DNA of 64,000 nt. Origin: Candidatus Kuenenia stuttgartensis. GTDB taxonomy: Bacteria > Planctomycetota > Planctomycetia > Planctomycetales > Planctomycetaceae. Location of the stretch: positions 1 to 64,000 of the forward strand of contig CAMDPK010000004.1 of the NCBI GenBank assembly GCA_945904015.1, given 5' to 3'. This document shows, piece by piece, positions 8,087 through 59,467 of this stretch. Each line of letters opens with the position of its first letter. The first letter of the stretch is position 1. The notes beneath the pieces are model-generated. The model made no database searches, was not told the origin of the DNA, and saw nothing but the letters and a program-made list of their open reading frames with translations. A program made the translations under genes and the position numbers.

Positions 8087-9370
8087 ATGAACATCCCCGT
8101 TGTCCGCTGGGGGTTGGCGCTGATTGGAATCGCAATCGCGTTCCTGGCGATGGATATTCTGCTGCGTCGTCCGTTGATGAATGAGTTGGCTTCAGTCAAA
8201 CGGGATCTCGCTAACGTCGAGAGAAGTTTGCATGACCTTGTGGGGGTGAAGGACGTCGCCTGGGAAACCAACCACCTGCTATCCGCCTTGCAGGCTCAAA
8301 AACGCCAATTGGAACCAGCCCGTGCGGCACTGGGAGACGTTCGCGAGTTCCGCATGAGCGTCGAGAATGAAGCACAACAGACCGGAGATGCGGTTGCCGC
8401 ATTGGATCGAATCGCCGAACTGCAAAAGCGAGTTGTCAGCCAGCGCGAACAGTCCGCAGACGTCGAACAAGTTCTCGCCGGCATCGTCAAATTGCACGAA
8501 AGCCTGATCTCCCAAAAGCCGGTGCAGCAAGAGGCGGTGACTAGCGTGAATCGCATGGTCGAACTGCATCTGCAAGTGCGTGACGCCGCGAAGGAATCTG
8601 AAGTCGCCGCCGTCGAAGTCCAGAAGCTCGGCGATCTGCGCACGAAAGTGTTGGAGAGCGCTGCCGGAGTTGAAGCAGCACAACGCGGCGCGGCCGAGTT
8701 GATCGCTCTCAAAGATTCGGTCCTCAAGGCGGACGACGTGGCCGCCGTGCAAGAGAACGCGAATCAGTTGCTGGCTCTGCGCGACTCGTTGCGGTTGAGT
8801 GACGACAGCACCGAGCAATCGCAAGCTCATGCGAAAGAGTTGCTCACGTTGCGAGATGATTTAGCCGCGAACGTCGAAGATACGCAGATCGCGCACCGAC
8901 ATTGGGCCTCGGTCCGCAAACTCGAAGCGGACATGAAGATGGCGGGGGGCGATATCGCCAACGCCATCGAGACTCTGGAATTGCTGACCGATCTGGGAGC
9001 CGAACTTCGTGGGCAAACGCAATTGCTGGCGGGAATGCGGCAGATGCTGACAGAATTCGCGATGCTCGAAACCACGATCGGCCGAGCGATGCGAGTTCTC
9101 GAACCATTGGCTCAATTGAAGAATCTCACTCGCTTGAACGAAGCCGAAGTTCGCGCCGCAGCACGAGCGATTCTCGAACAACGCAACTCGAAGCTCTCTC
9201 GCCACGACGAACTGCAACCCGCGCCGCCAGCCGCCAAGCTGCCTCTCGAAGACAGCTTGTTTTCGGACGAGCCTCCGCCCGTCATCGGCAACCGTTTGGT
9301 TCCGATGCCGCGTGACCTCGGCGAGAAGAACGAGCCTGCTCCGCCAGTCCGTACTGGCGCGATCGAATAA
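8087..9370 (+). CDS. membrane-anchored coiled-coil protein of unknown function
   Basis: A 427-residue protein. One N-terminal transmembrane helix (residues 6-24, RWGLALIGIAIAFLAMDIL) is followed by roughly 350 residues of heptad-rich, Glu/Ala/Leu/Gln-dominated sequence typical of a long coiled coil (for example VAALDRIAELQKRVVSQREQ), then a short Pro-rich tail. No enzyme motif is seen. A structural or spacer role at the cytoplasmic membrane is plausible but unproven. ATG at 8087 is preferred because it opens the transmembrane helix; an upstream in-frame ATG at 7937 would add 50 low-quality residues. A strong terminator follows. Confidence 0.75.
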   Translation: MNIPVVRWGLALIGIAIAFLAMDILLRRPLMNELASVKRDLANVERSLHDLVGVKDVAWETNHLLSALQAQKRQLEPARAALGDVREFRMSVENEAQQTGDAVAALDRIAELQKRVVSQREQSADVEQVLAGIVKLHESLISQKPVQQEAVTSVNRMVELHLQVRDAAKESEVAAVEVQKLGDLRTKVLESAAGVEAAQRGAAELIALKDSVLKADDVAAVQENANQLLALRDSLRLSDDSTEQSQAHAKELLTLRDDLAANVEDTQIAHRHWASVRKLEADMKMAGGDIANAIETLELLTDLGAELRGQTQLLAGMRQMLTEFAMLETTIGRAMRVLEPLAQLKNLTRLNEAEVRAAARAILEQRNSKLSRHDELQPAPPAAKLPLEDSLFSDEPPPVIGNRLVPMPRDLGEKNEPAPPVRTGAIE

Positions 9371-9423
9371 CTGGCTCCGAAATCACCCAGCTCGCACTGA
9401 CGGCATTCCGGCCGTCTCCTTCC

Positions 9424-9467
9424 CCGCCTCGGACGTGAAGCAGGTCACGTCCGGGGCGGTTTTGTTT
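9424..9467 (+). terminator. rho-independent terminator after the coiled-coil gene
   Basis: A 15-bp stem (CCGCCTCGGACGTGA, 9424-9438, with TCACGTCCGGGGCGG, 9445-9459; one G-T wobble), a 6-nt loop and then TTTTGTTT on the plus strand. It lies 54 bp after the stop of the coiled-coil gene. Confidence 0.85.
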
Positions 9468-9509
9468 CTCGCAGATTCAATCAGCAGAATGTCCGCTCGA
9501 AGTGTGGTG

Positions 9510-11300
9510 TCATTCCGAGTCGTCTGTTTCCGCCAGCGACAGAGTTGGCAAATTCGATCCTCCGTCCAGCGAGTCACCAACTGGAGCCAACATACGGCCG
9601 TGTCCGTTGGGCCAATTGGGGAACAACCGCTTCGGCAACCAGTTCGCCTTGTGAGCGCTGATGAGGAACCCGATCAGCATCGCCGCGATACTCCACGACA
9701 GCCCGGTCATCGCCGCACGACCGATGAGCGAAACGGCTCCACGAAAGCCCAGCATCATCAACCCGTAACCCAACACAGCCGTCGTTCCGGTCGAGGCATA
9801 CAAGTACCACTTACTGTGACAGGACATCGCGCACGCAAAACAGATCGCTGTCACTCCCGCGACGTAGAACAGTTTCCACGCGATCGGCACAGCTTCGGCC
9901 AAATGGCCAGTCATCATGAGCAATGAGGTGAGCGGTAACCAAACGGCTCCGATCAATCGCAACAGCGTCGAGAACTTGTCTCGGAAGGTCAGGCCCAGCG
10001 CCACACAACTTGCCAGCAGCAAGTGATAACAGGTCATCATGCGGAATCCGGCCAGCGGAGTCAGAGGCAACACCAACCACGTCGCGTAAATCAGAATCGC
10101 TGCCGCTCCACTGCTGCCGACCGAAGATTTTCGGCGAGCCGCAGTGATCGCCAACAATGTCCCCGCCACAAACAGTGGTGCTGGTTGCGCGGCGTGGATC
10201 GCCCGCAGGCTGAGCGTGTCTGCTCCGATAAACGTCAGCAGAACGATCATCGAGACGCAGCCCAGACTTGCGCCATCAACCTTTCGAAAGATGCCCCAGC
10301 CGAAAAACGACAGTAACAACAGCACTGTCCACCACAACGGCGCGCCAATCGTCGCCAGCACTCGCTGGGTCAGGAATGATTCGAAGGCCGGACCGCCGTT
10401 CCAAGACAGCGCAAGCAACAACAAACCCGGCGAGAACAGCAGCACCCTGCGAGCCAAAACTCGATTGCCGGCCGAGAGGAATCCCTCGAACAGCAACACC
10501 AGAAGTGACAATCCAAAGGGCACTAGAAAGTACGGACCCCAAATCGTGTCGAAGACGATTCCGGAATGAGTTTCGATGTTGCTCCAGATTGGCCCGGTCT
10601 GACCGAACGTCATGGCCAACGCGAATGACCGAATGGCAACAGCCACCGCAATGACTCCAAACGCCGCCCACGGAAACAAGGGCCAAGGCCAAGGCGTTCC
10701 ATTGTTGGCAACTCCCTTCGCCCCCCGTTTCACCGCCGGCAACAGTGTGAGATTCAGAATCGCTGCCAACTGCGGAAAGAAAAACACACTCCAATTCATC
10801 AGGCGAGTCGGAAGAGGATTCAGTTCTGGCGAGCACCACCACGGCATTGCGAAGAACAACGCCAGATACAAGACGAACGGCACTGCGTACCGCCAGCCGA
10901 TACGGATTCGCAATCCCCAGAACACTCCAGCCGAGACGGCGACCGCGAACAAGAAGCCGCAGACAAGCAACGCGATCCCTTGCCCCGGCGATGTCGCCTT
11001 CACGAAGAGATCATCCGCACTGATCGACACCGCCAAGAACAGCAACAGCAGCAACAACAGAATCGACCGAGCGTCGTCCCAGACTCGGCCCAGTCGCACA
11101 ATGCACACGCCGACTCCCGCCAGCAGCAGCGTGTACGCCGCCAATACGCCCATCATCACCCAGCAGTTGATGGACCCGATCTCTAGCTCCCCGTAACCGG
11201 CCCGCACGGCATACAGCATGAGTGCCGCGCTGATGGCATAAAACGGATTGTGCGTGTACAGCCAACGCACCAACGACGAACGCGGACTTGGCTCAGACAT
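9510..11300 (-). CDS. large polytopic membrane protein of unknown function
   Basis: A 596-residue protein with about fourteen hydrophobic segments spread over its whole length (for example WVMMGVLAAYTLLLAGVGV, ALLVCGFLFAVAVSAGVFW, VLLLLSFFGWGIF). There are few long soluble loops and no domain I recognise. ATG at 11300 (MSEPSPRSSL) is chosen because GGGAGA lies about 6 nt upstream and the following segment leads directly into the first helix. It is convergent with the coiled-coil gene and divergent from the M48 protease. A transport or envelope role is possible, but nothing in the sequence decides it. Confidence 0.75.
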   Translation of the reverse strand: MSEPSPRSSLVRWLYTHNPFYAISAALMLYAVRAGYGELEIGSINCWVMMGVLAAYTLLLAGVGVCIVRLGRVWDDARSILLLLLLLFLAVSISADDLFVKATSPGQGIALLVCGFLFAVAVSAGVFWGLRIRIGWRYAVPFVLYLALFFAMPWWCSPELNPLPTRLMNWSVFFFPQLAAILNLTLLPAVKRGAKGVANNGTPWPWPLFPWAAFGVIAVAVAIRSFALAMTFGQTGPIWSNIETHSGIVFDTIWGPYFLVPFGLSLLVLLFEGFLSAGNRVLARRVLLFSPGLLLLALSWNGGPAFESFLTQRVLATIGAPLWWTVLLLLSFFGWGIFRKVDGASLGCVSMIVLLTFIGADTLSLRAIHAAQPAPLFVAGTLLAITAARRKSSVGSSGAAAILIYATWLVLPLTPLAGFRMMTCYHLLLASCVALGLTFRDKFSTLLRLIGAVWLPLTSLLMMTGHLAEAVPIAWKLFYVAGVTAICFACAMSCHSKWYLYASTGTTAVLGYGLMMLGFRGAVSLIGRAAMTGLSWSIAAMLIGFLISAHKANWLPKRLFPNWPNGHGRMLAPVGDSLDGGSNLPTLSLAETDDSE

Positions 11301-21684: not shown

Positions 21685-21742
21685 GTAGGTTGGGCACTTT
21701 TGCCCGATCCGTTTCGAGGACGGGCAGGAGTGCCCATCCTAC
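21685..21742. repeat. inverted repeat (family I) at the methyltransferase stop
   Basis: Arms 21685-21706 and 21721-21742 are 22 bp with three mismatches (GTAGGTTGGGCACTTTTGCC against its partner) around a 14-nt loop. The right arm overlaps the methyltransferase stop codon. It may serve as a 3'-end hairpin. Confidence 0.75.
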
Positions 21743-22461
21743 ACGCGGGGGTTGGATCGCGAAGTGAAAAACTGCCACTCCATCAGCGTCGGCCGGAACT
21801 CGGCCAGGATCGCTCGACGAGTGGCCAGGTCCAACCCCGCGAGTTCTGGGTAATCATAGGTCTTGGCTTTTTGAATATCATCGACGCTCAGGATCGTACG
21901 CAGTTCGTGTGTCTCACGGAACAATTCCGCCAGTCGGGTCGAGATCGTGATGTCGTAACAGTCGTGGGTTTCAATCAGCAGATCCCAATCGGCGAATTGT
22001 CGGTGAGATTGCTCGGTGAAGATTTCGTTTTCCCCCCCGTCGCAGTCGCAGACGATCAACCCGCGCTGTCGAATGGGAATGCTGCCAAGTTCTTCGGCGG
22101 TAAACAGCGATCGGATTTTCAGGCGTTTTTTCACGCGGTTGAGCTTCGCGCAGGCGGCGCAGAGTTGACGCGATCCTTCGTAGGTGTCGTAGGCGTGGAC
22201 CTTCGCTTTGGGGACTCGCATGGCGAGCCCGACGGCGTAGTATCCCTCCGCACAGCCCACGTCGATGATCTCGGTGTAGCCGGCTTCACAGATCTCTGTG
22301 ATCCACGGATGCAGTTCGGACTCGTACGAACCCAGCAACTTGGGATACAGCGAGCTGGCAATGGAAGTCATCTCGGCGTACCGCAAGCCCGCGAATGGGC
22401 CGTGGCGGACGACGGCATCCGAGAACATCTGATGGATTTCCTCAGTCGACAGCGACTGCAT
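21739..22461 (-). CDS. class I SAM-dependent methyltransferase
   Basis: A 240-residue protein with the Rossmann methyltransferase motif I IIDVGCAEGYYAVGLA (65-80), an acidic residue at the end of strand 2 (VHAYDTYE) and LIVCDCDGGENEIF as motif II/post-I. No substrate-specific domain is recognised. ATG at 22461 has GAGAA about 7 nt upstream. It is the last gene of a minus-strand group with a polyproline micro-ORF (84 bp upstream), a glycosyltransferase and a DUF6065-like protein, so a peptide or glycan modification role is possible (inference). Confidence 0.8.
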   Translation of the reverse strand: MQSLSTEEIHQMFSDAVVRHGPFAGLRYAEMTSIASSLYPKLLGSYESELHPWITEICEAGYTEIIDVGCAEGYYAVGLAMRVPKAKVHAYDTYEGSRQLCAACAKLNRVKKRLKIRSLFTAEELGSIPIRQRGLIVCDCDGGENEIFTEQSHRQFADWDLLIETHDCYDITISTRLAELFRETHELRTILSVDDIQKAKTYDYPELAGLDLATRRAILAEFRPTLMEWQFFTSRSNPRV

Positions 22462-22544
22462 GAGGCTTCTCGCACCGATGTGTCAATGAAATGACCGCCG
22501 ACTCAACGAGCCGGCGGTCAGAACGAACAGCCGTTCAACCGCTG

Positions 22545-22631
22545 CTAATAACGTGGCGGTGGTGGCGGTGGTGGAAGTGGTGGCGGTGGAGGTGGTGGCG
22601 GCAGCGGTGGTGGCGGCGGGGGAAATGGCAT
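22545..22631 (-). CDS. polyproline micro-ORF (28 residues), possible precursor peptide
   Basis: The minus strand reads MPF, then runs of six, eight and seven prolines separated by single leucines, ending RY-stop. ATG at 22631 has GGAG exactly 7 nt upstream (TGGAGCACCTTC then ATG), better than many real genes here. The frame stays open upstream to an ATG at 22751 that overlaps the glycosyltransferase stop as TGATG, giving an alternative 68-residue form with a 40-residue leader. It sits between a glycosyltransferase resembling hydroxyproline arabinosyltransferases and a methyltransferase. It could also be a non-coding GGT/GGC repeat; expression is unproven. Confidence 0.4.
   Translation of the reverse strand: MPFPPPPPPLPPPPPPPPLPPPPPPPRY
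22548..22624. repeat. low-complexity GGT/GGC triplet tract
   Basis: About 75 bases of almost uninterrupted TGG/CGG triplets on the plus strand, prone to slippage. It underlies the polyproline micro-ORF on the minus strand. Confidence 0.9.
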
Positions 22632-22750
22632 GAAGGTGCTCCATTCAAAGGGTGGCGAAAGTACGCTGACGACAGATATACGGAAGCAACGACAGTTGCT
22701 CAACAGATACGAAGGTTTCCCCCACAGATTCGATGAGCCGCCATCGAGCA

Positions 22751-23638
22751 TCAGGCGATGCCGTAGAACTTGCGAGCTTCGCGAAGTTGCCGGCGGATGG
22801 TTCCGGCGATCGAACCGTCATCATCGGGAACATGCCAAACATATTCGTTGGCCGCTTCGGCGGTGCCGAAATCTCGTTTGTTAAAGCCCGGTCCGCCGTA
22901 GCAGTAGTGCAACACTTTTGGACCAGCGGCATCGAGCAGCGGCATCGGCTGATCTTCTTGAAAGTTTGTGAGACACAGTTTCGTCGATACGGCTTTGAGT
23001 TTCAGTCGGTGCATGGACATCACGAGGGCCCACATCGCGGTCAGCCAGGTTTTGCGAGCCTCGCCGTATTCTCCCGTGCCAATTGTCGGAAACAGTTCCA
23101 TCATCTCGAACCAGGAATCGCTGAGCGGACCTTGCCAGCGTGTCGGAATGACGTGCGGCACGCCGCCATCAATGAGCGGTTTCCGTAACTTGCGGGGATT
23201 GATTCCGGCTTGGCGACAGACGTCATCCAGAGTTGGCTGATGCTCGGGTGCGTCTGGCTGAAGATAGCCGCAATAGTCGAAGCTGATTTGCCGGTCGGAA
23301 AGGATCAGGTCGTCGAACGGAAACGGTTGCAGAAAGAGCATGTCTGAGTCGCACAGCACCATGTAGTCGGCATCGGTCTCGACGTGCCTGAGTGACCCGG
23401 CGGTGTTGCGCGGCGGATAACTGAGTCCATTCAGATCACGATAGTTCGGCGCGAGTTGCAGGCGTCCACCGGCTGCTCGAATCTGCTCAAAACCGGGCAA
23501 GAGCGGTTCGCCCTGCTGATGGACCACCACAATCGGCGGACGTCCCAGATGCGTCACGCACGAATAATGAAACAGCATCGTCTGCCAGACCAAGTAGTCT
23601 GTGTTTTCAGTGCAGACGACGATTTCGTGTCGTGGCAT
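22751..23638 (-). CDS. glycosyltransferase resembling hydroxyproline O-arabinosyltransferases
   Basis: A 295-residue GT-A-type protein. It opens with a short strand (HEIVVCTENTDYLVWQTMLF). The nucleotide-sugar and metal-binding acidic motif is in DYMVLCDSDMLFLQPF (DSD at 97-99). The order of blocks resembles plant HPAT (GT95) proteins: a Y/W-Q-x-x-x-x-x-Y opening, NYRDLNGLSYPPRNTAGSL, the DxD-like motif followed by hydrophobic-x-x-PF, a GGVPHVIPTRW acceptor-side loop, and TAMWALVMSMHRLKLK near the C-terminus. This is resemblance by eye, not a search result. ATG at 23638 has GAGAGG upstream. It is 36 bp after the DUF6065-like gene, so probably one transcript. Confidence 0.75.
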   Translation of the reverse strand: MPRHEIVVCTENTDYLVWQTMLFHYSCVTHLGRPPIVVVHQQGEPLLPGFEQIRAAGGRLQLAPNYRDLNGLSYPPRNTAGSLRHVETDADYMVLCDSDMLFLQPFPFDDLILSDRQISFDYCGYLQPDAPEHQPTLDDVCRQAGINPRKLRKPLIDGGVPHVIPTRWQGPLSDSWFEMMELFPTIGTGEYGEARKTWLTAMWALVMSMHRLKLKAVSTKLCLTNFQEDQPMPLLDAAGPKVLHYCYGGPGFNKRDFGTAEAANEYVWHVPDDDGSIAGTIRRQLREARKFYGIA

Positions 23639-23674
23639 GCCGTGGCCTCTCGGAATTCCACCGGATTGCGAACA

Positions 23675-24448
23675 TCACTTGGGCATGTCTTCGTGGCGTC
23701 GGAACGGACGCAGTTGCAGTTTGGTTTGATGTTCCACGAAAGACGTTCCGTCGGTTTTGCGACCGAGCAGATAATCTCGCTGCCAGCCTGGCTTGCTCTC
23801 GGATTCAAGATAACGGGCGAGCTTCTCAATTTGTGCGGTTCGCGCTGTCCGCCATTCTTCGAGAGCTTTTTCGAGCTTCGGGTTTGTGGACAAGGGTTGG
23901 CAGACTGGATCAAACGACTCGGCCAGACCGCGCGGGATTGGCACGATCATGCAGATCGGCTCCCCTTGCTCGAAGTGGACGGTGTGATTGCGGCGAGTCA
24001 GCTTCCAGTTCATGGTGAATGTGGATTCGTTCCAGTCAGTCTCCACAATTCCTTCGAGCGCTTGAATGCCGTCTTTGATCCAATTGGACGGACCCTTCAC
24101 CCACAGGTTAATGCCACGTGGGGTTCGAAACAGATAGGGCAGCAAGATCGTGAGGACTCCCCCGCCGAAGTGGCTCACGATGTAGTCCGATTGGCCCTGA
24201 CTGTTTCGCGGCTTGCGAACTTTGAGGTCCGCGAGTTCCGGTCCACCATTCCAACGCACGCTGAAACTGATGGGACAGCGGATGATCCACCCGCCTTGAT
24301 TCGCGATCACCAGCGGCAAACAACGATACGCAAATCGATCACGACTTTGATCCATCCATTCTCGGTTGGACGAAGCCGGCTCAATCGGCATGCCAGCGAG
24401 AGGATTCAAATCGAACGCGATGAGGCGGCGTTGGCGTTTTGGCGTCAT
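23675..24448 (-). CDS. DUF6065-like protein of unknown function
   Basis: A 257-residue soluble protein. The blocks IEPASSNREWMDQS, RFAYRCLPLVIANQGGW and the central FGGGVLTILLPYLFRTP match my recollection of the DUF6065 family, whose members are often found near peptide- or glycan-modifying enzymes. No catalytic motif is evident and there is no signal peptide. ATG at 24448 is the only plausible start. It is the first gene of the four-gene minus-strand group ending with the methyltransferase, and starts just after the stop of the kinase-WD40 gene on the same strand. Confidence 0.7.
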   Translation of the reverse strand: MTPKRQRRLIAFDLNPLAGMPIEPASSNREWMDQSRDRFAYRCLPLVIANQGGWIIRCPISFSVRWNGGPELADLKVRKPRNSQGQSDYIVSHFGGGVLTILLPYLFRTPRGINLWVKGPSNWIKDGIQALEGIVETDWNESTFTMNWKLTRRNHTVHFEQGEPICMIVPIPRGLAESFDPVCQPLSTNPKLEKALEEWRTARTAQIEKLARYLESESKPGWQRDYLLGRKTDGTSFVEHQTKLQLRPFRRHEDMPK

Positions 24449-24481: not shown

Positions 24482-27316
24482 TCAATCCTCTTTGGATTTC
24501 CGTGGCATCCTGAGTGCCGGGTGGTCAGGGTAGTTGTTGCGAAACTTGGTCCACCGTTCGATCCATTCTTCGGAGGTCAGGCTGGTTGCCGCACCTCCTT
24601 CGTGAATGCGCTGCGAGGATAGAATTTCGCCTAGCAGCCTCACATCCTCGCGCTTCAGTTGCGAGTCTCCCGCCAGAATCCAGCGGCTCCGATCGAATCT
24701 TCGAACGGATGAGATTCTTCCGGAGGCGATGACTTGTGAACCCGAACCTTCCAGCGAAAGTTGGTAGATCATGTCCGGCATTCGCCACGAGGGAGCGATC
24801 AACTTTCCCAGCGTCGCGTCCCAAGCGGTGAGCTGACCATCGCGACTGGCCACCAGGAAGATCTCTTCGCCAGGCAGGAAAGTTGCGTCGAAGACTTGGT
24901 CGATGTGCTCTCGAGTGGCCAAGTCCGCGCGGCCCGTCGCAACGTCCCAGATGCGGGCCTGCTTGTCGGTCGAAGCGGTCAGCAAGCGCCGACCGTCGTG
25001 ACTGAACTTCACGCTGAAGACCCATCCGGCATGCACTAAAACCGGACCGACACTCTCGCCCGTTTTGGTGTCCCACAGACGAGCCGTATGATCAGATCCG
25101 CCGGTCGCGATCAGCCGCCCATTGGGCGAGAACTGCGCGTCATGGATGAAATTGGGAGAATGCCTCAGGACGAACTGTTGTTCTCCGGTCTGGGTGTTGC
25201 GCAACTCAATCATCTCGTTGCAGCCCCAGATCACGAATTGATCGCCCCGTGCCGAAAACCGAATCCGATCGCGAATCACATAGCCAAAAATCGCGGGCAG
25301 TCCCTGAAACGCCTGGTCCTCCGCGCGGACTTTGCCCGTGGCCGCATCCAGCAACATGACTTGGCCTCGGTAGCACAACACAACGATCGTTTGGCCGTCT
25401 GGGCTGCTGCGCACCGCGATCGGTTGTGACGGAGTCGTGACATCCGCGAACACCGATTCGGCCGTTTCGGAATTCACGAATCGAACAGACCCAGGATCGT
25501 CGAGCTTCTGTTCTTGCAATCCACGATGGGCATCTTCTCGTGAGCCGCCACACGCGAGCACCACGAGCGGTGATTTGGGGACGAAGTCGGCATCGCTGAT
25601 GAGCCCAGAAGCTGAGAGTTTCGGGCCGACGGACTTTCCAGATCGAGAATCCTGAATCTCAACGCTGCTCCGAGACCGTCCATTATCAAAACTCGAAGGG
25701 AGCCAGCGGTCACCGTTTTGGTTCAACCGCACAAACGGAGCCGACTCGGTATTGGCAATGGCAGAGTCCAGCGATTGTGGTTCGCTCAGACGCCAAATGC
25801 GGGTCAAATCGCCAGTCCAGTGGGTTGTCGCGAAGGTCGCTCCATCCGGCGACCACACGCATTTCTGAACGGCGTCACAATGCAGGATTGGGTTGCCAAT
25901 CAACTTTCCGGACGGAATCTCTAACAAACGAACGGACTTGTCCGCACTCCCCGCCAACAGCAATGAACTTTGCGGATGAAAGCTCAGGCAGAAATTCACA
26001 TGCGGAAATGTGATTCGTTCCGCAACCGAGCCTCCTGCATCCGCATTCAACAGAACAACGTCGAAGTCTTCCGAGAGAGCAATCCACATCCCATCGGGCG
26101 ATTGAGCCGCAGCGATGATGCGACTGATCTTCTGCTCCCATTCGATGGTCTTCTGTTCGAGATTCCAGCAACGAGCGGACTTGTAGTCGTCGAGAACCAG
26201 CAGCCGAACATTGTCGATGAAAATTGGAGCGACGTTTGATCCTGCGGGCTGGGCGGGCAGCAATGGCTTGGAGTTGCGTTGATCGGTTGAGGAAGAAAAA
26301 ACTCGGATCTGTTTGTCCTCGCTGCGAACCGCGAAACGATCGCCATTTCGAGCAATGGCCGCTGAGGAAACCGGACTGCCGACTTCCAGCGGACCAGTGC
26401 GAAACGACTTGTTCGGAAATTCGCGGACTTGCACCGTCTGTTCGCCGCCGACAACCAGTAGGTGGCCGTCCGAACTGAACTGCAAATAACTCACTTGCTC
26501 CGAGTGGTTCCAGCGGTCGAATTCCTTGTTCGTGGGATACTCGAAGGCAATGACTTCGGTGTTGGATGCCAGGACCAACAGTTTTCCATCGGGACTCCAA
26601 GTTGCGGCATTCACCCAATCTTCGATCGGGACTTTCGCACGGCTGCCATCAGTCACGCTCAATAGCTCGCAGGTGCCGTTGAGCGTGAGAAACAGCAAAA
26701 TATCATTTGCTGAAGGGCGATAGCTCAGTTCCTTGATCCACGCCGATGGCTGTACAAAGGCCTGAATGGGAGTCGTGATTTTTGGCAACCACGATTGAAA
26801 CCGAATGCGATTGTGCTTCTCGCGCAGCGGATGATGCTCGGTCGCGGAGACGGCATTCGCGAACCACAAGATTGCCTCGCGCGGATCGCCATTACGGTCG
26901 GCGGTCAGCCCGGCCTCGGTGTACGTGTCGATGATCGACTGCTCGGTGGCCAGCCGTGCCTTCTTTTCGTCGTCGCGAGCGAGCTTGGCCTCATTGGCAT
27001 CACGCTTCGCGGCCGTCGCCAATTTATCAAATTTCACAGCCAGCCAAGGTCCACCGATGCCTGCGATCAGAAGCAGCAACGTGATCGCACCACCCAAGCT
27101 CGCGATCATCCGATTGTTTCGGCACCAGCGAGCAAATCGCTCGACCGGACCAATCGGCCGAGCCAACAGCGGCAACCCCTTCAGCCAGTGATCCAAGTCA
27201 TCGGCCAGAGCTTGCAGATTCGAATAGCGTGCGTGGGGATCTTTCTCCATCGCCTTCAAGCAGCACGCTTCGAGATCGCGCGGCAGGTCGGGCCTCACCG
27301 ATCGTGGTGCGGGGGG
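24482..27316 (-). CDS. WD40-repeat C-terminal part of a frameshifted Ser/Thr kinase
   Basis: This frame continues the kinase encoded at 27317-28292 after a one-base frameshift. It holds the end of the kinase domain (PRSVRPDLPRDLEACCLKAM, DPHARYSNLQALADDL), a transmembrane helix (MIASLGGAITLLLLIAGIGG), a short coiled coil, and about 750 residues of WD40-type propeller repeats, clearest in AQFSPNGRLIATGGSDHTAR and FSHDGRRLLTASTDKQARIW. The propeller should lie outside the membrane and act in sensing or scaffolding (inference). The two parts together would encode about 1270 residues. It reads with no start codon of its own. Confidence 0.85.
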   Translation of the reverse strand, partial: PPAPRSVRPDLPRDLEACCLKAMEKDPHARYSNLQALADDLDHWLKGLPLLARPIGPVERFARWCRNNRMIASLGGAITLLLLIAGIGGPWLAVKFDKLATAAKRDANEAKLARDDEKKARLATEQSIIDTYTEAGLTADRNGDPREAILWFANAVSATEHHPLREKHNRIRFQSWLPKITTPIQAFVQPSAWIKELSYRPSANDILLFLTLNGTCELLSVTDGSRAKVPIEDWVNAATWSPDGKLLVLASNTEVIAFEYPTNKEFDRWNHSEQVSYLQFSSDGHLLVVGGEQTVQVREFPNKSFRTGPLEVGSPVSSAAIARNGDRFAVRSEDKQIRVFSSSTDQRNSKPLLPAQPAGSNVAPIFIDNVRLLVLDDYKSARCWNLEQKTIEWEQKISRIIAAAQSPDGMWIALSEDFDVVLLNADAGGSVAERITFPHVNFCLSFHPQSSLLLAGSADKSVRLLEIPSGKLIGNPILHCDAVQKCVWSPDGATFATTHWTGDLTRIWRLSEPQSLDSAIANTESAPFVRLNQNGDRWLPSSFDNGRSRSSVEIQDSRSGKSVGPKLSASGLISDADFVPKSPLVVLACGGSREDAHRGLQEQKLDDPGSVRFVNSETAESVFADVTTPSQPIAVRSSPDGQTIVVLCYRGQVMLLDAATGKVRAEDQAFQGLPAIFGYVIRDRIRFSARGDQFVIWGCNEMIELRNTQTGEQQFVLRHSPNFIHDAQFSPNGRLIATGGSDHTARLWDTKTGESVGPVLVHAGWVFSVKFSHDGRRLLTASTDKQARIWDVATGRADLATREHIDQVFDATFLPGEEIFLVASRDGQLTAWDATLGKLIAPSWRMPDMIYQLSLEGSGSQVIASGRISSVRRFDRSRWILAGDSQLKREDVRLLGEILSSQRIHEGGAATSLTSEEWIERWTKFRNNYPDHPALRMPRKSKED

Positions 27317-28292
27317 GTGCCTCGCGGACGTTGGCGACTCGCGCGATGATCGTCCACGGATCACCAGAAAACGGAGGTCGGCCACACAGCATTTCGTAGA
27401 GCACCACGCCGACACTGTATTGATCACTGTGCGGACCAATCTCGGCGATCGCCCCGCGCGCCTGTTCCGGAGACATGTAATTTGGCGTGCCGACGATCTG
27501 CCCTTCCATCGTCATGCCCGATTCGATGTCGCCTTCACGTTTCGCCAGTCCAAAATCCATGACCTGCGGCCGGCCGGCAAGATTCAGCATGATGTTGGCC
27601 GGTTTCACATCGCGATGAACGATCCCTTCGGTGTGCGCGTAGAAAAGTCCCTCGGCGATTTGCCTCGCCCAATCCACCGCCATGTGCAAGTCGGGTCGTT
27701 TTTCCCGTAGCTTCTGAGACAACGGGACACCGTTGATGAATTCGGCGACCAGATACGGACCTTCGTCGGTCTGGCCATTCTCAAACAGTGTGACAATGTT
27801 GGGATGATGCAGCCGCGCCGCCGCTTTGGCCTCACGATGAAATCGCTCCATCATGTCGCGATCGTCGGGCGCGAACCGAGGCACCTTCAATGCGACTTCT
27901 CGATCCAGCAATGGATCGTAGGCTCGATAAACCGTGCCGAACGATCCGCGACCCAGAATGCTGATCACTTGAAATCGTCCGACCAACTTTCTCGACGCCA
28001 CAAGAGCATCCGAGGCGTAGGCCGTCGGCTCGGTGGGGTCCGCCGAAGGGACGAAGTCCAGCGTCAGCGCCTGATTCGGATCGGTGTCATCGTCGCTGCC
28101 GATGATCACCGTCCGCGTCGAAGCTGCGAGATGTGCGGTCTGACCGCTCTGTTCGCCAGGAGTCTTGGGAGCCGGCGATGGAACGTTTTGAGGCGCTGTC
28201 TGACAGGACTCACAACGCGGCGGCACGGTTCTGCTCGACTCGGAAAGAATCGCGCCGCATTCTGAGCACGTTTGCCGAGTGTTTTCTGCCAT
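27198..28292 (-). CDS. N-terminal part of a Ser/Thr protein kinase-WD40 protein (frameshifted)
   Basis: ATG at 28292 (GGAAG upstream) opens a zinc-ribbon-like element (C9, C12, C27, C30) and a linker, then a Hanks kinase: LGRGSFGTVYRAYDP, VALK, HRDVKPANIMLN, DFGLAK, GTPNYMSPEQARG. The kinase frame is lost at a run of seven G (27311-27317, seven C on the coding strand). In this frame it runs on to a stop at 27198 after nonsense residues (ARPAARSRSVLLEG). Removing one C joins it exactly to the WD40 frame and restores the conserved kinase C-lobe. The break is either an assembly error at a homopolymer or a real, possibly phase-variable, mutation. Confidence 0.85.
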   Translation of the reverse strand: MAENTRQTCSECGAILSESSRTVPPRCESCQTAPQNVPSPAPKTPGEQSGQTAHLAASTRTVIIGSDDDTDPNQALTLDFVPSADPTEPTAYASDALVASRKLVGRFQVISILGRGSFGTVYRAYDPLLDREVALKVPRFAPDDRDMMERFHREAKAAARLHHPNIVTLFENGQTDEGPYLVAEFINGVPLSQKLREKRPDLHMAVDWARQIAEGLFYAHTEGIVHRDVKPANIMLNLAGRPQVMDFGLAKREGDIESGMTMEGQIVGTPNYMSPEQARGAIAEIGPHSDQYSVGVVLYEMLCGRPPFSGDPWTIIARVANVREAPPRTTIGEARPAARSRSVLLEGDGERSPRTLFESASSGR

Positions 28293-28377
28293 GCGTCTTC
28301 CAAAATCCCAATCCACCGCGAGCGCTGCGCTGCCAGCGTAAGCGTCACCGTCCAATGAATCCAGAGTTGCGAACGTA

Positions 28378-29718
28378 TCACACTTCCGGATGCACCCACG
28401 GTCCACGATACGGCCGGCGCAGCAACTTGTTCGCGGCCGGATCGTTGGCGATCACCCCCTTCGCCGCATCCCACGTCAGTGACCGGCCGAGCTGCATCGA
28501 CAAATTCGCGAGAATGCAACTCACGGTCGAGGTGTGCCCCTCCTCGATGTCGGCCACCGGCCTGCCGCGAGTCGCGATACAATCGAGCAGGTTCTGCATG
28601 TGGCGGCGGATTGCCGGAGCGACATGCTTTTCGAGATCCTTCTCGGTCTTGTCTTCAGGATATTGCTCCAACTCCATCGTCACGTCTTTGTGGATCGCGT
28701 CGCCGCTGTTCGGGATGAAATCAAAGCTGTTGACGCTGGCCTTGAGCGTCCCCTTCTCGCCGTAGAACGTCGCGCCCCACGGATACTTTGGATCGGGCGA
28801 CGAACCCCACGTCCTATGCTGCCAGACGACGTTCACGCCGTCGAACTCGAACGTCGCCGTCTGCGTGTCTGAGATGTTCGCCTTGCTGTTCTTGTCCATC
28901 AGAATGCCGCCCGTCGAACTAACCGTCGTCGGCCAGCCGAGTCCCGCCATCCAGCGAACCATGTCGAGCATGTGAATACACATGTCGCCGACAATCCCGT
29001 TGCCGTATTCCATGAACGCTCGCCAGCGACGCGGATGCACCAGCGGGTTGTACGGCCGCATCGGAGCCGGCCCGGTCCACATCTCGTAGTCGAGATAATC
29101 CGGCGGCATCGCGTCGGGCGGGTTCTCGCGAGCACGCATGTGGTAGTAGCAGTAGATCTCAATCAGTCCAATCTTGCCGAGCTTCCCTTCCTGAATCAGC
29201 TCGCGAGCCTCCGCCAAATGCGGCGTGCTGCGTCGCTGAGTGCCGACCTGCACGACTCGGCCATGTTTTCTCGCGGCGGCGAGCATCGCCTGACTCTCGA
29301 CGATGTCCACGCTCGTCGGCTTCTGGACGTAGATGTCCGCTCCGGCCTTCACCGCCTCAATCATCGGTAGAGCGTGCCAATGATCCGGCGTCGCGATCTC
29401 GACGATGTCGAGATCTTTTTCTGCGAGCATCTTCCGATAGTCGCCGTACAACCGCGGAGTCTTTTTCGACACCTGCCGCGACGCGACGATCTCACCTGCC
29501 TCTGCCAGCATCTTCTTGTCGACATCGCACAACGACACGACCTCGACCGGCGCAATCTGAATCAGCCGCAGCAAGTCACACTTGCCGTACCAGCCGGTGC
29601 CGATAAGACCGACTCGCTTCGGCTTGGGCTCGGCCGCGAACGCTGTCGGGAGAACTGGAATGAACGAACTCAACGCGACGCTGCCGGCAGTGGCATTCAA
29701 GAACTGGCGACGATCCAT
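28378..29718 (-). CDS. Gfo/Idh/MocA family oxidoreductase with Tat-like leader
   Basis: A 446-residue exported NAD(P)-dependent sugar or inositol dehydrogenase-type protein. The twin-arginine-type leader MDRRQFLNATAGSVALSSF is followed by the Rossmann motif VGLIGTGWYGKCDL, the conserved DWH-like ATPDHWHALPMIEAVKAGADIYVQKP (catalytic Lys of the EKP/QKP motif) and the planctomycete-type C-terminal domain (GNGIVGDMCIHMLDMVRWMAG). Substrates in this subfamily are mostly unknown. ATG at 29718 has AAGGGGG upstream. The leader is nearly the same as that of the next gene upstream. Confidence 0.92.
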   Translation of the reverse strand: MDRRQFLNATAGSVALSSFIPVLPTAFAAEPKPKRVGLIGTGWYGKCDLLRLIQIAPVEVVSLCDVDKKMLAEAGEIVASRQVSKKTPRLYGDYRKMLAEKDLDIVEIATPDHWHALPMIEAVKAGADIYVQKPTSVDIVESQAMLAAARKHGRVVQVGTQRRSTPHLAEARELIQEGKLGKIGLIEIYCYYHMRARENPPDAMPPDYLDYEMWTGPAPMRPYNPLVHPRRWRAFMEYGNGIVGDMCIHMLDMVRWMAGLGWPTTVSSTGGILMDKNSKANISDTQTATFEFDGVNVVWQHRTWGSSPDPKYPWGATFYGEKGTLKASVNSFDFIPNSGDAIHKDVTMELEQYPEDKTEKDLEKHVAPAIRRHMQNLLDCIATRGRPVADIEEGHTSTVSCILANLSMQLGRSLTWDAAKGVIANDPAANKLLRRPYRGPWVHPEV

Positions 29719-57403: not shown

Positions 57404-59467
57404 ATGAAACCATTGCGGATCACGGCGCTCGGCAGTCGAGTTGTCATGCTGTTTGTGGTTGTGGCGGTGTTGACGAACTCCGGCGGAGTCGGCGTCGCGG
57501 ACAAGAGGGCCGGACTGACGGACACGTCTGCCAGTCCACACGTCGTGATGTGCAGCGTCGGGCTGAGCGATGTGCGCTGGACGGACGGCTTCTGGGCGAG
57601 TCGGCAGGCGGCGTGTCGCGAGGGATCGTTGCCGGCGCTCCGCGAGATCATGGACGGGACGCGGCACTCGCAGTTCTTGCAGAACTTTCGCATCGCGGCC
57701 GGACTGATCGCAGGCAAGCATCGTGGTCCCGATTGGAACGATGGGGACTGCTACAAGTGGCTGGAAGCGGTCGCCGCGATGTACGCCGTGACGCACGACG
57801 ACGAGCTGGCTCGGCAGATGGAAGCGGCCGTGCGAGTCATCGCGCAGGCCCAGCGCGATGACGGCTATCTGCACACGCCGGTGCTGATCCGGCAGCGACA
57901 GGGAGATGCCTCGGCGGTGCCGTTTCAGAATCCGCTCAATTTTGAGATGTACAACTTCGGGCAACTTTTCACTGCCGCCTGCGTGCATCGCCGAGCGACC
58001 GGCCAGGACGACTTGCTGAAGGTGGCGATCAAGGCTGCGGATTTTCTCGATCGCGCGTTTGCCAATCCGTCCCCCATGCTGGCCCGCAATCACGTCTGCC
58101 CGTCGCACTACATGGGGATGATCGAGCTTTACCGAGAGACGCGCGACGAACGGTATCTGAACCTGGCGACGAAGTTCCTCGCGCTGCGCGATTTGGTGCA
58201 GGACGGCACGGACGACAATCAGGATCGGCTGCCGTTCCGCAAGCAGACCCAAGCGGCCGGTCATGCGGTGCGAGCCAATTACCTGTTCGCCGGTGCGGCC
58301 GATCTGTATGCCGAGACTGGCGACGCGACGTTGTTGCCACCGTTGATGTCCGTGTGGAACAGCGTCGTACAGCGGAAGATGTACGTCACCGGAGCCTGCG
58401 GCGCGTTGTACGACGGAGCTTCGCCCGATGGCTCGGCGAGTCAAAAACAAATCGCTCGCGTGCATCAGGCGTATGGCCGGGACTATCAGCTACCGAACGC
58501 GACGGCTCACAACGAGACCTGTGCGAGCGTCGCCAACGTGATGTGGAATTGGCGGATGCTGCAAATCACCGGCGAGTCGCGATTCGCCGACGTGCTGGAG
58601 CGGTCCTTGTACAACGCCTCACTGGCCGGCATCAGCCTGGATGGCAAACGTTTTTTCTACACCAACACGCTGCGGCAGTTGAACAACTCGCCCACGGAGC
58701 TGCGCTGGTCGCGCACGCGCGAGCCGTTCATCAGTTGCTTCTGCTGCCCGCCGAATGTCGTGCGGCTGATCGCCGAAGTCGGTCACTACGCCTACGGCCA
58801 CTCGGGCGATGATTTGTGGGTCAATCTTTACGGAAGCAATCAGCTCGACACCGAGACCTCGGCAGGCTCACGCTGGACGGTGACGCAGACCAGCAACTAT
58901 CCGTGGGACGAAACGGTGCGCCTGACGATTCAATGTGGACCGGCCAAGCCCAGTGTGATTCGGCTGCGCATTCCAGACTGGGCGGACAACGCGCGGCTGA
59001 CGATCAACGGTGAAGCTCTCGCCGAGCAGCCTCGGCCGGGCACGTTTCACGCGGTCCGTCGCCAGTGGCAGCAGGGCGATCAAATCACGCTGACGCTGCC
59101 GATGCGCACGAAGTTGATTCAGTCGCATCCGCTGGTCGAAGAAACTCGCAATCAAGTGGCGGTGCAGCGCGGGCCACTGATCTACTGCCTCGAATCGCCC
59201 GACTTGCCGGAAGGTGTGTCGGTCTCCGACGTCGTGATTCCTCGGGACATGAAGCTGACCCCGCGCTTCGATCGAGAACTGCTCGCGGGAATCACGATTC
59301 TGGAAGGGGACGCGCTGGCGGAGCCGTCCTCGATCAACTCGAACGAGCTGTTTCAAGAAGTGAAACCGTCCGCCGCGAAGCCGGTTCACGTGCGGCTGAT
59401 CCCGTATTTCGCCTGGGGCAATCGTGGAAAGACCGAGATGTCCGTGTGGCTGCTGGGGAGTCGCTGA
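57404..59467 (+). CDS. GH127 family glycoside hydrolase (beta-L-arabinofuranosidase-type)
   Basis: A 687-residue exported enzyme. After a leader (residues about 10-33) comes an (alpha/alpha)6 barrel followed by beta-sandwich domains, as in GH127. The zinc/nucleophile site is recognisable: E371-T-C373 in ATAHNETCASVANVMWNWRM, and C447-C448 in CFCCPPN. Together they give the Glu-Cys-Cys-Cys set in which one Cys is the nucleophile. Known members release beta-L-arabinofuranose from hydroxyproline-linked or pectic arabino-oligosaccharides. ATG at 57404 has GAGG upstream. It is the third gene of module A, 13 bp after the lipoprotein. Confidence 0.92.
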   Translation: MKPLRITALGSRVVMLFVVVAVLTNSGGVGVADKRAGLTDTSASPHVVMCSVGLSDVRWTDGFWASRQAACREGSLPALREIMDGTRHSQFLQNFRIAAGLIAGKHRGPDWNDGDCYKWLEAVAAMYAVTHDDELARQMEAAVRVIAQAQRDDGYLHTPVLIRQRQGDASAVPFQNPLNFEMYNFGQLFTAACVHRRATGQDDLLKVAIKAADFLDRAFANPSPMLARNHVCPSHYMGMIELYRETRDERYLNLATKFLALRDLVQDGTDDNQDRLPFRKQTQAAGHAVRANYLFAGAADLYAETGDATLLPPLMSVWNSVVQRKMYVTGACGALYDGASPDGSASQKQIARVHQAYGRDYQLPNATAHNETCASVANVMWNWRMLQITGESRFADVLERSLYNASLAGISLDGKRFFYTNTLRQLNNSPTELRWSRTREPFISCFCCPPNVVRLIAEVGHYAYGHSGDDLWVNLYGSNQLDTETSAGSRWTVTQTSNYPWDETVRLTIQCGPAKPSVIRLRIPDWADNARLTINGEALAEQPRPGTFHAVRRQWQQGDQITLTLPMRTKLIQSHPLVEETRNQVAVQRGPLIYCLESPDLPEGVSVSDVVIPRDMKLTPRFDRELLAGITILEGDALAEPSSINSNELFQEVKPSAAKPVHVRLIPYFAWGNRGKTEMSVWLLGSR

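Follow-up and report, generated by a model that had tools for sequence, protein, structure and literature searches.

Glycosylated ribosomal peptides include the glycocins and others among the ribosomally synthesized and post-translationally modified peptides (RiPPs). The plant enzymes HPAT1-3 are the founding members of glycosyltransferase family GT95, related to GT96 with the extensin serine galactosyltransferase, according to PMC8012813. Here we describe a locus in a 64-kb stretch of planctomycete DNA (contig CAMDPK010000004.1, positions 1 to 64,000; this whole stretch is called the window), in which a gene for an HPAT-like glycosyltransferase (GT) is followed on the minus strand by a very short open reading frame (ORF) for a proline-rich peptide, the micro-ORF. 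Kinase-WD40, DUF6065, GT and micro-ORF form a recurring set in which the last two are the tightest pair. The recurrence of the GT-peptide pair in distantly related Planctomycetes suggests an unrecognised bacterial system that would make and decorate polyproline peptides.

The locus resembles the plant extensins and their GT95 and GT96 enzymes in having an HPAT-like GT beside Pro-rich peptides, and some of these carry extensin-type motifs (SPPP and YSPP in the peptide of locus L004, SPPPPP in that of L043). Unlike the plant system, it is bacterial and operon-encoded, there is no Golgi, the GT match lies at threshold, the peptides are only 11-47 residues long with no signal peptide evident by eye, and no linkage to a prolyl 4-hydroxylase (P4H) was found. 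An extensin screen (PMC4769139) asks for two or more SPPP repeats; two of the six peptides have at least that many (four in L004, three in L043), L006 and L044 have one each and the L002 peptide none, and the window peptide, with 0, falls outside the screen. As in glycocins and other RiPPs, a short gene-encoded peptide adjoins a glycosyltransferase, but here there is no common leader/core layout and no Cys, the peptides are mostly Pro, the GT is of another family, and no protease or transporter was seen in common among the loci compared. The window's DUF6065 gene is a member of PF19541, here linked with a GT and with a micropeptide. DUF6065 also adjoins bacterial surface proteins of the collagen-like or polyproline kind in Sinorhizobium and Ochrobactrum, whereas the Pro-rich part in the window is a free micropeptide. 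A literature search, mostly without subscription papers and preprints, returned nothing on DUF6065, and no bacterial HPAT-polyproline pair was described in papers judged from listings, with few subscription papers or preprints among them.

Conservation of the glycosyltransferase-peptide pair

The preliminary description of the window had listed four closely spaced minus-strand frames, for a DUF6065-like protein, the GT, the micro-ORF and a methyltransferase, and an ORF check of the 64 kb recovered all four (Table 1). Together with the kinase-WD40 gene, the order along the minus strand is kinase-WD40, DUF6065, GT and micro-ORF, separated by intergenic gaps of 33, 36 and 119 nt. The micro-ORF had been described as 28 residues with 22 or more prolines, preceded by a well-placed GGAG; both features are present, the exact Pro count is 22, and it is the sole ATG-initiated ORF of 10-80 residues with at least 50% Pro in the window. 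The observation itself is confirmed, and the interpretation first given to it, a new kind of ribosomally made glycopeptide or extensin-like surface peptide, is in part supported.

A full-length GT was found in seven genomes, namely that of the window (G000), its sister genome (G474, 95% identical to the window GT), G506 (57%), G743 (53%), G624 (52%), G434 (49%) and G393 (42%), the range outside the sister genome being 42-57%. It was returned from 6 of 170 genomes of the window's family (one a fragment with a stop), with the same tally from an order-level search of 170 genomes that apparently adds no genome, from 7 of 397 genomes in a class sample (one a weak fragment), and from 2 of 95 in a second family; a phylum sample of 392 gave one genome with a single-protein query and two with an alignment, the second being a weak 46-residue piece. 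The gene set is therefore rare and patchy. Kinase-WD40 and DUF6065 precede the GT in the window, G474, G506, G434 and G743, while the G393 contig begins inside the WD40 part. One further genome, G482, holds remnants of the kinase, DUF6065, GT and methyltransferase genes next to each other within a short region (L037, about 9000-9800), which reads as a deletion scar, and the unit therefore seems dispensable. Co-descent was not seen in the GT and DUF6065 trees, each of which has a single inner branch with good support. Viral contigs contained matches to a proline-codon pattern but no relative of DUF6065 or the GT, a plasmid search gave no GT, and a phage search, which covered DUF6065 and not the GT, gave no DUF6065.

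The preliminary description had proposed looking for Pro-rich ORFs beside homologous GT genes. In six of six readable loci, an ATG-initiated Pro-rich ORF (49-79% Pro) starts 61-119 nt 3' of the GT stop. Outside the window, the peptides are MPFPPPPPPLPPPPPPLPPPLPPR in G474 (gap 119 nt), MSYSPPPYSPPYSPPVSPPPYSPPASPPPVSPPPYSPPTG in G506 (61 nt), MPESPPPPPPG in G393 (119 nt), MPRQARHARQASMQHSPPPPPSPPPPPPPAPPPPSPPPAKK in G743 (112 nt; the 41-residue form has 49% Pro, and an inner ATG at MQHS gives more than 50%) and MSEPTYPPPTSPPPPVPPPPLPPPPVPPPPLPPPPAPPPPLPPPPLP in G624 (82 nt; a further in-frame ATG lies upstream). Two of them look extensin-like, MSYSPPPYSPPYSPPVSPPPYSPPASPPPVSPPPYSPPTG and one containing ...SPPPPPSPPPPPPPAPPPPSPPP..., and in the L004 peptide prolines occur only as PP or PPP with other residues in between. 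Not in the count are G434, where the contig ends inside the GT, the decayed G482, the weak second GT-like match L032, and the fragments L045 (G745) and L083 (G300); L045 has only a 10-residue frame, MLYSVPPPVM. L002, a public record (Planctomyces sp. metagenome-assembled genome), is the same contig as L003 of G474 and was counted once. GGAG or AGGAG precedes the peptide ORF in the window, G474, G743 and G624; at this place G393 has GGAAGGGG, and G506 no more than AAAGGG. Variation of the proline tract in both length and frame between strains had been named as evidence against the idea; length does vary, from 11 to 47 residues, and the sequence varies widely too, but the frame is kept. From these loci it is almost certain that the peptide gene is genuine and goes with the GT.

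Where GC is high, CCN repeats might yield Pro-rich frames by chance or low-complexity drift. Indeed, six genomes contain the loose pattern ATG-N3..12-(CCN)5 between 8 and 25 times each (5-12 times when read backwards), and with the threshold lowered to 30% Pro a small Pro-rich ORF also follows one non-GT ORF (MPKTLPLRPPELQ, L092). At 50% Pro or more, however, ATG-initiated ORFs of 10-80 residues number six in 14 loci (272.6 kb, GC 0.56-0.75), all at the six post-GT places and on the same strand, with G743 counted by its inner start. Among 174 picked ORFs of at least 150 residues, such an ORF starts within 150 nt downstream of five, all five being GTs, and of none of the 169 others; the picks include spurious frames and the weak GT-like gene of G393, and leave out the GTs of G624 (where a spurious antisense frame was picked) and G434. 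Of 100 pattern matches 30 were fetched, of which three were the cassette peptides and 27 were not; in these 27, frames no longer than 80 residues with at least 50% Pro occur only at one G434 place (L052/L058, antisense of a Gly-rich protein) and in L076 (the 9-residue end of a longer frame). Finally, 11 of the 13 micro-ORF substitutions between the window and its nearest relative, L002, fall at third codon positions (10 codons synonymous, one nonsynonymous, with gap placement ambiguous in the repeat), as compared with 13, 3 and 44 differences by codon position in the GT and 11, 4 and 45 in DUF6065, a pattern that looks purifying. A chance origin is accordingly the least probable of the explanations, with hardly any weight left to it.

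A longer form of the peptide, starting in a TGATG overlap with the GT stop and adding a 40-residue leader, had also been suggested. It is present in the window (68 residues) but not conserved, and we rejected it because the nearest relative, L002, has an in-frame TGA and because the 20 upstream differences (ten at codon phase 3, eight at 2, two at 1) show no clear coding pattern. With no long form kept and no leader common to the six peptides, the leader-before-core layout of RiPPs and glycocins was not found here.

Runs of 6-8 Pro stall ribosomes, and a methyltransferase gene follows the micro-ORF in the window, so the ORF could be regulatory, with stalling that senses EF-P or proline status for the neighbouring gene. 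The peptide ORF is, however, the last in the unit, and the gene beyond it differs by lineage: within the window's genus it is the methyltransferase, in G506, G393 and G743 the neighbour is convergent, and in G624 it lies on the same strand and looks by eye like an ABC-type ATPase. In addition, a marked hairpin follows in four of six loci (window, L003, L043 and L044, z -1.7 to -2.9); the one in L006 is weak and A/T-rich (z -0.8), and L004, whose peptide has no Pro run beyond three, shows nothing notable (z -0.1). A regulatory role is therefore improbable.

A proposed polyproline-modifying unit

We favour reading the unit as an operon that would make a free Pro-rich micropeptide together with enzymes that modify it, and put the probability of this at roughly 0.5. 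The micropeptide would be translated, EF-P being expected to help with a polyproline peptide, and would take the shape of a polyproline II rod and serve as acceptor for the GT. The sister peptide from G474 consists of M, P, F, L and R only; as it lacks Ser, Thr and Tyr, O-glycosylation there would need a modified proline, and hence a proline-acting step first, most plausibly by DUF6065, and the GT second, the order being that of plant extensins, in which hydroxylation comes before arabinosylation. The window peptide has a terminal Tyr as its sole hydroxyl residue. The kinase-WD40 protein would regulate the unit. Glycosylation of the peptide seems likely, and we lean slightly towards the GT as an enzyme that modifies it; a first modification of proline by DUF6065 is proposed only tentatively. 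A still broader proposal, which we hold to be rather doubtful, is that of a bacterial polyproline-decorating pathway of its own, in which DUF6065 would be an unrecognised family of proline-modifying enzymes with polyproline, collagen-like and micropeptide substrates in different phyla; in Planctomycetes it would be coupled to an HPAT-like GT that, controlled by the kinase, glycosylates extensin-like micropeptides in free form. If true, this would give bacteria an equivalent of plant hydroxyproline glycosylation, on a substrate short enough for direct synthesis and assay, would give DUF6065 its first function and would bear on the origin of HPAT enzymes. Micro-ORFs of this conserved kind are easily overlooked because they are short and low in complexity.

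The resemblance of the GT to plant HPAT enzymes, noted earlier for the window alone, was repeated across the GTs, six of seven matching PF23452 at E<=0.01; two are above the cut-off (L003 at 28.0 and L044 at 26.3 bits), the window GT is just under it and L004, L005 and L043 score 18.9-20.2. In an alignment of the seven GTs, D97-x-D99 and H244-Y-C-Y247 are invariant. The GTs of the window, L043 and L044 had no NCBIfam match at E<=0.01, and searches with PDB profiles gave nothing for the GT.

The DUF6065 label given earlier was borne out by a PF19541 score of 302.3 bits against a cut-off of 26.6, and each of the seven full-GT genomes has one strong DUF6065 gene, G482 retaining only a piece. In Sinorhizobium medicae, DUF6065 lies 9 nt after an autotransporter that has one run of 20 Pro and one of 11, the autotransporter of strain WSM1115 has 34 Pro, and on pSymA of S. 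meliloti ABS7 the proline tract is present but spread over several frames. In Ochrobactrum, DUF6065 follows at about 150 nt a protein with a collagen-like GPx tail (L108, 2154-4732). Another genome, G189, has DUF6065 54 nt ahead of a 53-residue peptide ending GGKPPAPPPSA (L038, 9869-11031), and in G178, counted as a sixth lineage outside the cassette, DUF6065 itself begins MSEPAPLPPLPPPAPDG. We regard DUF6065 as a candidate second enzyme of the unit because it co-occurs with the GT and adjoins polyproline or collagen-like proteins in Alphaproteobacteria. DUF6065 had no NCBIfam match at E<=0.01, its PDB profile matches were at E 0.09 or worse and were taken as chance, and in PHROGs it matches phrog_7084, a family without assigned function.

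Three side observations were made at these loci. The Sinorhizobium arrangement of an autotransporter with a long polyproline linker and then DUF6065 is found in L104 (6451-9732), L110 and L103. For a second Sinorhizobium type, the three copies examined (L106, L107, L111) have both DUF6065 and an autotransporter remnant broken, as if lost together. In L038 of G189, the 53-residue peptide is followed by a 324-residue protein without a Pfam match at E<=0.01.

Several results weigh against the proposed modifying operon. Similarity to HPAT lies at the Pfam threshold, and L006 has no match at E<=0.01. Both structure models, at a mean pLDDT of 31-32 (30.9 for the AlphaFold model of the GT, whose input was two near-identical sequences), give no fold support. 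No leader motif is common to the six peptides compared, and no Pro-rich ORF accompanies the weak second GT-like match of G393 (L032). The G624 genome has WD40-DUF6065 on a contig other than that of the GT-peptide pair, which makes GT and peptide the tightest pair. A Pro-rich neighbour of DUF6065 was found in three of five lineages outside the cassette, a count without a matched control, in DNA where high GC makes Pro-rich frames commoner, and leaving out most weaker matches (L015-L027) and one of two Niveispirillum places. No counted Pro-rich partner was seen in L010-L013 (one genus) or at the examined Niveispirillum place; opposite-strand frames of 33-40% Pro upstream in L010, L011 and L013 were taken to be alternative frames of a different gene. 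A conserved HxD/E...H forms the iron centre of 2OG-Fe(II) P4Hs. The HxD/E motif was not found in DUF6065, where H93 and H240 are invariant in the seven cassette copies and 12 planctomycete members with no acid two residues on, and no His is invariant among 11 diverse members, alphaproteobacterial ones included. A genome search for P4Hs, also proposed in the preliminary description, showed no association of PF13640 with the cluster (4 of 7 intact-GT genomes against 29 of 54 cluster-free ones, and also G482; absent from G434, G624 and G743, the last a 79% complete genome), and we rejected a PF13640 prolyl hydroxylase as obligate partner, other oxygenase families not having been searched.

Under a rival reading, the peptide would be a genuine small protein without being a substrate: as a polyproline II rod it would act as an adaptor or activator by binding to either the GT or the kinase, and the GT would glycosylate something else. 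It would fit the near-absence of hydroxyl groups in the window and sister peptides, the kinase-WD40 gene in the unit and the lack of a PF13640 partner that tracks it. But the wide variation of the peptides in sequence and length is closer to what a loosely specified repeat substrate would show than to a binding partner, and DUF6065 has a second polyproline link in another phylum. An adaptor is thus unlikely, though far less so than a regulatory ORF.

Locus layout and neighbouring genes

Table 1. Features of the locus and of the wider window.
Feature	Position	Strand	Evidence
Pro-rich micro-ORF, 28 aa, MPFPPPPPPLPPPPPPPPLPPPPPPPRY, proposed substrate peptide	22545..22631	-	counterpart after GT in 6/6 readable loci; codon-position differences 1, 1, 11 vs L002
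GGAG, Shine-Dalgarno-like, 7 nt 5' of micro-ORF ATG	22639..22642	-	kept in L002/L003
HPAT-like GT, 295 aa	22751..23638	-	PF23452 23.8 bits, cut-off 23.9; alignment of 7 GTs
DUF6065 protein, 257 aa, candidate proline-acting partner	23675..24448	-	PF19541 E 2.9e-90; strong copy in 7/7 full-GT genomes
Ser/Thr protein kinase-WD40 gene, two overlapping frames (24482-27439 and 27198-28406)	24482..28406	-	single frame in L036
13-bp hairpin, possible terminator	22492..22520	-	24 nt 3' of micro-ORF; z -2.9 vs mononucleotide shuffles
Putative class I methyltransferase, probably outside the system	21739..22461	-	behind hairpin; genus-only
GH127 beta-L-arabinofuranosidase gene	57404-59467	opposite strand to DUF6065	PF07944 E 5.4e-111

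The hairpin behind the micro-ORF has no clean T run. The methyltransferase frame beyond it is real, with a weak family match (TIGR01444 FkbM, 21.4 bits against a cut-off of 37.7; no Pfam family above its cut-off), and tblastn detected it in the window and G474, with a piece in G482, and nowhere else. Its earlier inclusion in the cluster did not hold, and we rejected it as a part of the system on account of its place behind the hairpin and its restriction to the genus. Similarly, the GH127 gene to which the preliminary description had pointed as one of a family known to cut arabinose from hydroxyproline glycans is real, but it lies about 33 kb from DUF6065 on the other strand and its tie to the system was not made. 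No protease or transporter common to the flanks was seen by eye in the window, G506, G393, G434, G474 and G482, a comparison that left out G743 and G624; in G624 the ABC-type ATPase adjoins the peptide gene.

Elsewhere in the G000 genome, the PF13640 protein is a peroxiredoxin fused to a 2OG-Fe(II) oxygenase domain (L050, 1298-2431). The kinase-WD40 gene of the window has a frame change near 27312, where the sister genome has one frame of 1269 residues (L036), and its split is either an assembly error or a real break.

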